From: Cyanobacterium sp. uoEpiScrs1
GTDB lineage: Bacteria; Cyanobacteriota; Cyanobacteriia; Cyanobacteriales; Microcystaceae
DNA: 64,000 nt
Direction of reading: 5' to 3'
Assembly (NCBI RefSeq): GCF_947331815.1
Contig: NZ_OX373462.1
Coordinates: 1,599,376-1,663,375 of the forward strand
Part shown: piece after piece, positions 10,614 to 46,244 of the stretch
How the letters are laid out: each line of letters opens with the position of its first letter
Position numbering within the stretch: the stretch's first letter is position 1
The notes under the pieces: generated by a model
What the model was told of the DNA's origin: nothing
Database searches by the model: none
The model's input: only the letters and a program-made list of their open reading frames with translations
Made by a program: the position numbers and the translations under genes

Positions 10614-10752
10614 GATAACTATACACCTTTATTCAAACACTAAGGTTCTATAAATTAAGTTTCAAACGAATGTCCTAACCTCAAAATAAAGAAGCTAAAA
10701 TTTTAATACTATCTATTATCTTTCCAGTTACTATTGCTTTTCTGGACATCAG

Positions 10753-10815
10753 AAAGAGAGCCAACGACTTTCCGTGTTTCGTCTTGGCTCTCTTTTTGGT
10801 TCGCTCCTCACACTA
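10753..10815 (+). ncRNA. Candidate small RNA: stable hairpin plus Yfr1-like CTCCTCACAC motif
   Basis: A 12-base-pair stem (AAAGAGAGCCAA with TTGGCTCTCTTT, then T5 in total) stands out from the AT-rich surroundings. It is followed 7 bases later by CTCCTCACACTA. The core CTCCTCACAC is the ultraconserved unpaired motif of the cyanobacterial small RNA Yfr1, which lies after a 5' stem-loop. Against Yfr1: no clear terminator hairpin follows the motif, and the base before it is G, not A. The hairpin with its T-run could instead be a plain plus-strand terminator, yet no plus-strand gene precedes it for about 3 kb. The motif is exactly antisense to the hpnJ ribosome-binding site. Confidence 0.35.
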
Positions 10816-10886
10816 GTAGTAGTATATATAACTCATGTAAATTTGTCACTATACTTAAGGAAAATTTTCAATTTGTGCATTACATA

Positions 10887-44787: not shown

Positions 44788-46227
44788 TTAAGAGGCATTA
44801 ACTAAAGTTCGGTTACGACGTTCATTCAAATAAGCCATGAATTCTCGTCCTTCTCGTAAACGACGTACCAACATTTGGGGATCAACTAACATTTCTTTAA
44901 CGATGGGAATAATTGCTCCAGGACGAAAATAAAAGCGACGATACATCTGTTCAACTGCATCTTCGATTTCTGCTGCCGATAAATTGGGATATTGTAATGT
45001 AGACATTTGAATACCAGAAGTTGCTACCAAATCTCGATTAGTAAACCAATCATTGTCTAAAGCTTGTTGATATAACTCTGTTCCAGGGTAGGGCGAAGCA
45101 ATAGATACTTGAATAGTGTGTGGACTAACCTCACAAGCAAAACGAATGGTATCTTCAATAGTTTCCTTGCTTTCATTTGGTAAACCGATAATAAATGCCC
45201 CATGAACCTTAATTCCAAGTTTATTACAGTTAGCCATAAACTTGCGGGCTACTTCAAGTTTAATCCCTTTTTTAACTCCATCGAGAACTTTTTGGTTTCC
45301 TGATTCAAAGCCTACCAAAAGAAGTCTTAAGCCATTGTCTCGAAGAGTTTTTAAAGTATCATAGTCTAAGTTTGCACGGGCATTACAACTCCAAGTTAAT
45401 TTTAGTTTTTTGAGATGTTCACTAATAGCAATAACACGTTTTTTATCAATAGTAAAAGTATCATCATCAAAGAAATATTCTCGAATAGAATTTCCCCAAA
45501 GTGATTTTGCTAACGCCATTTCCTGTCCTACTGCCTCAGGACTTTTAGCACGATACTGATGTCCTCCGATAGTTTGAGGCCACAGACAAAATGTACATTT
45601 TGCAGGACAACCGCGACCTGTGTACAAAGAAATATAGGGGTTAAGTAAATAACCAATGAAATAGTTTTTAATATCAAGATTATTTGCATAAACAGGGAAA
45701 ACACTCGGCATTGAGTCCCAATCGTGGATTAATTCCCGTTCTTCCGTGTGTTTGATATTTCCCTGTTGATCACGGTAACTAAGTCCCTTAATCTGATCGT
45801 AAGGCCTTCCTTCAGCTAATTCCTGACAAGAGTAATCAAATTCATTGCGACAAACAAAATCGAGAATAGGATTTTCTTTAAGAGTTCTGGTCGGTAAAAC
45901 TGCTGCGTGTGCTCCCAATAAACCAATTTGAGTTTCAGGATTTTGAGCTTTAATAGCCTGAGCGCATTTTACATCATTAGAAAGAGTGGGGGTGCTGGTA
46001 TACATAATAACCAGTTCATAGTCTTTAGAAATTTTGAGAACATCCTCCACTGTTTGATAATGAGCAGGAGCATCCACCAGTTTACTCCCAGAAACTAACG
46101 CTGCTGGTTGTGCTAACCAAGTAGGATACCAAAAAGAGGTAATTTCACGTTTTGCTTGATATCTTGCTCCTGCACCTCCATCAAAACCATCAAAGGAAGG
46201 GGGACTCAGAAAGAGTGTCTTTTTCAT
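44788..46227 (-). CDS. hpnJ: Hopanoid biosynthesis radical SAM protein HpnJ
   Basis: A B12-binding radical-SAM enzyme of hopanoid tailoring. The 479-residue protein starts with LFLSPPSFDGFDGGAGARYQ, the HpnJ signature, has a cobalamin-binding-like N-terminal domain (about 45-130) and the cluster motif CPAKCTFC in GRGCPAKCTFCLWP. In Burkholderia, HpnJ is proposed to contract the sugar ring of bacteriohopanetetrol glucosamine to the cyclitol ether. Squalene-hopene cyclase and other hpn genes are not in the window. The start ATG has a fine Shine-Dalgarno, GAGGAG at 5 bases, which lies in a 12-base stretch complementary to the candidate RNA at 10.8 kb. Confidence 0.92.
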   Translation of the reverse strand: MKKTLFLSPPSFDGFDGGAGARYQAKREITSFWYPTWLAQPAALVSGSKLVDAPAHYQTVEDVLKISKDYELVIMYTSTPTLSNDVKCAQAIKAQNPETQIGLLGAHAAVLPTRTLKENPILDFVCRNEFDYSCQELAEGRPYDQIKGLSYRDQQGNIKHTEERELIHDWDSMPSVFPVYANNLDIKNYFIGYLLNPYISLYTGRGCPAKCTFCLWPQTIGGHQYRAKSPEAVGQEMALAKSLWGNSIREYFFDDDTFTIDKKRVIAISEHLKKLKLTWSCNARANLDYDTLKTLRDNGLRLLLVGFESGNQKVLDGVKKGIKLEVARKFMANCNKLGIKVHGAFIIGLPNESKETIEDTIRFACEVSPHTIQVSIASPYPGTELYQQALDNDWFTNRDLVATSGIQMSTLQYPNLSAAEIEDAVEQMYRRFYFRPGAIIPIVKEMLVDPQMLVRRLREGREFMAYLNERRNRTLVNAS

Positions 46228-46232
46228 GCTGT

Positions 46233-46244
46233 CTCCTCACACTA
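46233..46244 (-). promoter_or_regulatory. hpnJ ribosome-binding site, complementary to the Yfr1-like motif
   Basis: The hpnJ leader reads TAGTGTGAGGAG, then ACAGC and ATG. The GAGGAG is the ribosome-binding site. The whole 12 bases are the exact reverse complement of 10804-10815 on the plus strand. Confidence 0.7.

Follow-up and report, generated by a model that had tools for sequence, protein, structure and literature searches.

The question raised by this locus is whether the ribosome-binding site of hpnJ is the target of a small RNA and, if so, of which one. In the window, as we call the whole 64-kb stretch of DNA that was analysed, the 12-mer CTCCTCACACTA occurs exactly twice, at 10804-10815 and at 46233-46244, both on the plus strand, and it has no further copies with up to one mismatch (0.15 expected at that tolerance). 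The 12-base match that the first-pass annotation had reported is therefore real; its reading of one copy as antisense to the other hinges on the strand from which the 10.8-kb element is transcribed. Our analysis points to another arrangement, to which we give a probability of about 0.7: the hpnJ leader would be a target of the genuine Yfr1, whose gene lies outside the window; control would extend likewise to squalene synthase, hpnH and hpnI; and the element at 10.8 kb would be a Yfr2 copy that titrates Yfr1. On this evidence, the synthesis of hopanoids (sterol-like membrane lipids) may be under Yfr1 control.

The gene and its leader site are the following.

44788..46227, minus strand: hpnJ coding sequence, 479 aa, hopanoid radical SAM/B12-binding protein (TIGR03471 and Pfam)
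46233..46242, minus strand: Yfr1-complementary site GTGTGAGGAG with the hpnJ Shine-Dalgarno inside, 5 nt before the ATG (sequence, complement of Yfr1, relatives)

A profile search gave the hpnJ ORF 791.3 bits against TIGR03471 (cut-off 577.6), and the protein has the Pfam domains Radical_SAM and B12-binding. The gene assignment made earlier is thus confirmed, and so is the statement that the matched leader bases contain the Shine-Dalgarno, since the minus-strand reading upstream of the gene is TAGTGTGAGGAG-ACAGC-ATG. In addition, hpnJ is 93-95% identical to the hpnJ of Epithemia and Rhopalodia endosymbionts, so that the genome probably belongs to another, obligate, diatom endosymbiont.

According to Rfam, Yfr1 (RF01116) has no match anywhere in the 64-kb window. 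The RNA is encoded at a distant locus:

C1:241255-241318 (L001/L141): Yfr1 gene, 64 nt (RF01116, 62.5 bits against 38)

This gene is present as a single copy in the 2,483,960-base genome, about 1.36 Mb away from the window. A thioredoxin-like ORF (WCGPC, trxA; L141:988-1311) lies directly downstream, and this Yfr1-trxA order is the published synteny (PMC6778093). Both the covariance model and the predicted fold give two hairpins with ACUCCUCACAC unpaired between them; all 30 of 30 relatives carry the motif ACUCCUCACACC unchanged, and it is predicted to be unpaired, with an opening cost of 0.1 kcal/mol. The hpnJ site is the exact complement of Yfr1 CUCCUCACAC over 10 bp, and the predicted duplex has an energy of -16.8 kcal/mol, or a net -12.9 kcal/mol after opening both sides.

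Targets were sought by whole-genome motif searches together with sampled stretches, and the background leaders came from a 152-gene sample of the genome with start codons called mechanically. Counts of contiguous pairs were preferred to duplex energies with the full 19-nt Yfr1 linker, because the latter discriminate poorly, spurious long pairings scoring well. The 10-mer GTGTGAGGAG occurs six times in the 2.48-Mb genome, where about one copy is expected: at Yfr1 (in the reverse reading), in the three Yfr2 genes, in the hpnJ leader and before an ORF that we take to be Ycf66-like. This last copy, at C1:1261304-1261313 (minus strand; L003:1501-1510), is the only exact one besides those of the sRNA genes and hpnJ; it lies 102 nt upstream of that ORF and inside the divergent gap before a large second one, presumably TamB-like, and may mark an additional Yfr1 site within a long 5' UTR. 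Leaders within one mismatch of the 10-mer were found for two of the 152 sampled genes (hpnJ and a porin), with a mean of 0.16 for scrambled motifs, a null that ignores Shine-Dalgarno content. By duplex energy hpnJ was among the best of the 152 sampled leaders, in line with the high rank predicted for it by the first-pass annotation, but several other leaders pair about equally well. This is expected of a regulon, since these are mostly envelope genes, three of them from the hopanoid pathway. Taken alone, the match in the hpnJ leader exceeds chance only moderately; it is the comparative evidence that takes it well beyond.

When one mismatch is allowed, the 10-mer has 63 sites in the whole genome, compared with 39 for the reversed pattern; about 20 of the 63 sit 4-25 nt before a start codon, although three of these 20 or so seem internal to longer ORFs. 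Sites within one mismatch are found directly upstream of squalene synthase, hpnH and hpnI. The family models give hpnH 545 bits and hpnI 303 bits, the latter a little below its cut-off of 310, and the squalene synthase-like gene matches PF00494, with a TIGR01559 match only under cut-off; no hpnG match above the family cut-off was found in the genus. In this genome the contiguous pairs with Yfr1 number 10 for hpnJ, 9 each for squalene synthase and hpnI, and 7 for hpnH, where more pairs follow past a mismatch. Besides hpnJ, four hopanoid genes were considered (squalene synthase, shc, hpnH and hpnI); the probability that three or more of them would carry sites by chance is P = 7.9e-6. This value is rough, since attention turned to the pathway only once the search had been made, and it assumes about 1430 genes, an extrapolated number. 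As a sequence prediction, the placing of hpnJ among several hopanoid genes that carry Yfr1 sites has good support. Furthermore, the whole-genome search placed one-mismatch sites before the following genes.

C1:681858, 38687, 1228662, 2152318, 661852, 1473293, 2381176 and 1316065: sites before glmM, murC, a SpoIID protein, an LCP glycopolymer transferase, an M23 peptidase, an ECF sigma factor and two porins

From these predicted sites, an envelope regulon of Yfr1 has apparently been retained in the reduced genome. Elsewhere, at C1:437445-437473, TTGTGAGGAGgtag stands on both strands 19 bases apart, forming an inverted pair without an obvious ORF start.

Conservation across relatives differs from gene to gene. 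For squalene synthase, runs of at least 8 contiguous Yfr1-complementary nt are present in 37 of 40 family leaders (0.4 expected). Its site, TGG[T/C]GTGAGGAGT, hardly varies across 13 genera, most flanking columns being variable; the aligned site matches 11.8 of 13 positions, perfect 13-mers occur in 3 of 15 representatives, and none of 300 scrambled motifs equalled this conservation. Apart from one T/C position, conservation is about as strong in the segment 5' of the Shine-Dalgarno as in the Shine-Dalgarno itself. hpnH has such runs in 24 of 40 family leaders (0.1 expected), and in genus g10, probably Microcystis, its leader reads TGGTGTGAGCAA-ATG and keeps the Yfr1-complementary TGGTGTGAG without a Shine-Dalgarno, which takes this site beyond an explanation by ribosome binding. 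In hpnI the runs occur in 16 of 24 family leaders, UCYN-A and one other genus lacking them. We also considered that the hpnI copies of sister endosymbionts were pseudogenes and rejected this, because their stops fall at the natural C-terminus. shc, the committed step, has a Yfr1 site in 0 of 17 leaders. In the wider class, runs of at least 8 nt were found in 9 of 20 squalene synthase leaders and 8 of 20 hpnH leaders.

The hpnJ site has a narrower distribution. A run of at least 8 nt is present in 7 of 8 leaders from its own genus plus UCYN-A (0.04 expected), part of this conservation needing no sRNA because the site contains the Shine-Dalgarno, and in several sister genomes the site is reduced to 8-9 bp. 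It is therefore kept in close relatives, as the earlier proposal would have it, but it is lost in Crocosphaera (0 of 6 leaders) and in nearly all Nostocales (of 64 more distant leaders, mostly from this order, 62 lack it). Judging from the breadth of conservation, squalene synthase and hpnH appear to be the oldest parts of the Yfr1-hopanoid connection, and the hpnJ and hpnI sites look like lineage-specific additions. Two further observations concern genes at or beside hpnJ. In the hpnJ leader of genus g14 (G049:C1, L104), TTGGTGTGAGC lies some 20-30 nt before the start, possibly an independently placed Yfr1 site. In Cyanobacteria bacterium QS_4_48_99, the gene at L080:747-2396, upstream of hpnJ, encodes a B12-binding radical SAM protein and carries the 9-nt site CTGTGAGGAG before its start; it resembles HpnP, but no family model supported this identity.

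These distributions bear directly on the alternative that survives best, namely that an ordinary Shine-Dalgarno (GAGGAG) has by chance been extended into the hpnJ match, with Yfr1 perhaps regulating squalene synthase and hpnH but not hpnJ itself. We regard it as unlikely: the loss of the site in Crocosphaera and Nostocales, the preference of Shine-Dalgarno sequences for GAGGAG and the one or so exact 10-mers expected per genome all speak for it, but the half of the site outside the Shine-Dalgarno, GTGTG, is kept in EtSB, RgSB, EcSB and UCYN-A, a distant Xenococcus MAG has an exact copy, the site recurs on other genes of the pathway, and runs of at least 8 are limited to 3 of 66 leaders in a Shine-Dalgarno-matched control, a porin leader among the three. 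Considerably less probable is that the motif is a conserved element of translation or mRNA stability (an RBS-presenting hairpin or a protein site), common to Yfr2 and the hopanoid leaders for another reason. A short stem around the hpnJ Shine-Dalgarno is possible in some sister genomes (e.g. GTGT-GAGGAA-ACAC), but it is weak and not kept across relatives, so that an RBS hairpin was rejected as the explanation of the hpnJ site; in addition, the common segment exactly complements the invariant Yfr1 motif, and pairing of Yfr1 with Yfr2 and with leaders has been experimentally demonstrated in other cyanobacteria (PMC6778093, PMC6974561).

With Yfr1 as the proposed partner of the hpnJ leader, the element at 10.8 kb has to be accounted for. 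It comprises the following features.

10748..10817, minus strand: Cyano-1/Yfr2 sRNA gene, one of three copies in the genome (Rfam RF01701, syntenic copies)
10804..10813, minus strand: predicted Yfr1-binding motif GUGUGAGGAG at the Yfr2 5' end (sequence, Rfam, energy, synteny)
10821..10849, minus strand: promoter-like GTGACA-17-TATACT directly upstream of the Yfr2 5' end (sequence; kept by most syntenic relatives)

We take Cyano-1 (RF01701) to be the Yfr2 family. Yfr2 has been described as complementary to Yfr1 (PMC6778093), which agrees with this assignment. The Rfam covariance model matches at 10817-10748 on the minus strand with 41.6 bits (cut-off 41), and the syntenic relatives score slightly under the cut-off (39.9-40.8 bits). 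Across the endosymbionts of Epithemia turgida, Rhopalodia gibberula and Epithemia clementina, the syntenic copies all preserve the promoter region along with the 5' GTGTGAGGAG and the hairpin, and the minus-strand family loop (GAAACA..GGAAA) is conserved in the syntenic copies. The promoter-like element is weak alone, because 1.2 sites of its type are expected in shuffles, and is not significant by itself. Together, the minus-strand Cyano-1 call, the promoter-like element and the conserved 5' end indicate that the RNA carries the hpnJ-leader sequence: the Yfr2 5' end and the hpnJ leader bear the identical sense sequence UAGUGUGAGGAG. Since the RNA starts with the same sequence as the leader, pairing between the 10.8-kb RNA and the hpnJ mRNA through this motif is ruled out; both are complementary to Yfr1 and would pair with it, the Yfr2 motif with a predicted net energy of -14.6 kcal/mol. 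The segment at 10804-10815 is therefore not the Yfr1-like motif it had been taken for, and the antisense relationship claimed for the hpnJ ribosome-binding site holds for the real Yfr1 but not for this element. That a Yfr1-like RNA transcribed from the plus strand at 10.75-10.85 kb acts on hpnJ, as in the first-pass annotation, is scarcely credible: the plus strand does fold into a strong hairpin beside CTCCTCACAC (-29.7 kcal/mol), but this is the Yfr2 hairpin in reverse reading, Rfam finds no Yfr1 at the locus, the promoter-like element and the conserved family loop are on the minus strand, and the genuine Yfr1 is located elsewhere.

In the model that we favour, Yfr1 would use ACUCCUCACACC, kept unpaired between its two hairpins, to base-pair with the Shine-Dalgarno region of the hpnJ mRNA, so that ribosome binding would be blocked and translation repressed. 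The same control would apply to the mRNAs of squalene synthase, hpnH and hpnI, alongside those of porins and peptidoglycan genes, and the Yfr2 copy at 10.8 kb, which has the same site, would titrate Yfr1 and relieve the repression. In this regard, Yfr1 represses other targets in reporter assays (PMC6974561), and porins and murC are validated target classes in Prochlorococcus and Nostoc (PMC6974561, PMC6778093). An E. coli reporter assay with the Prochlorococcus RNAs shows that Yfr2 counteracts Yfr1 (PMC6778093), and gel shifts show that it binds Yfr1 in Nostoc (PMC6974561). From this work on other cyanobacteria we infer repression by occlusion of the ribosome-binding site and antagonism by Yfr2. 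Starting from the gene and sRNA identities, the complementarity and its conservation, which the sequences establish, we further infer that Yfr1 control would act on hopanoid genes and in this endosymbiont.

To our knowledge, little is understood of hopanoid regulation in bacteria. A literature search, made mostly without subscription journals, found no paper that brings Yfr1 together with hopan* or squalene, and hopanoids are absent from the main texts of two Yfr1 target studies (PMC6974561, PMC6778093), whose supplements may hold sqs or hpn genes. Yfr2 has been reported to increase under nitrogen limitation in Prochlorococcus and Nostoc (PMC6778093, PMC6974561), which makes a link from nitrogen status to hopanoid supply possible. 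Additionally, hopanoids have been proposed to limit O2 entry in nitrogen-fixing cyanobacteria, and shc expression tracks nifH in UCYN-A (PMC12502677). More tentatively, and at slightly less than even odds, the Yfr1/Yfr2 switch could set hopanoid output across the pathway (squalene synthase, hpnH, hpnI, hpnJ), be tied to N2 fixation through the nitrogen-responsive Yfr2, and have been retained in the N2-fixing endosymbionts of diatoms and haptophytes. If true, an ancient, near-universal cyanobacterial sRNA would give a direct and testable handle on hopanoid control, envelope composition would be linked to the nitrogen-responsive Yfr2, and an sRNA circuit would have survived endosymbiotic genome reduction.

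Lastly, both RNAs resemble known systems closely. As in other members of the Yfr2/Cyano-1 family, which has several copies at scattered loci, the copy at 10748-10817 has a GGAAA-type loop and a 5' motif complementary to Yfr1; nothing in it is unusual, and its score is marginal (41.6 vs 41). With the Yfr1 regulons of Nostoc sp. PCC 7120 and Prochlorococcus MED4 our system shares the sRNA, the motif, the location of sites mostly directly before start codons, porins and murC, published targets that also have predicted sites here, and a largely envelope-related set of functions (PMC6974561, PMC6778093). It differs in that squalene synthase, hpnH, hpnI and hpnJ do not appear in the main texts of those studies (PMC6974561, PMC6778093), and in its host, probably an obligate diatom endosymbiont. 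Compared with these systems, what we describe adds new predicted targets to a known sRNA and does not amount to a new kind of system.
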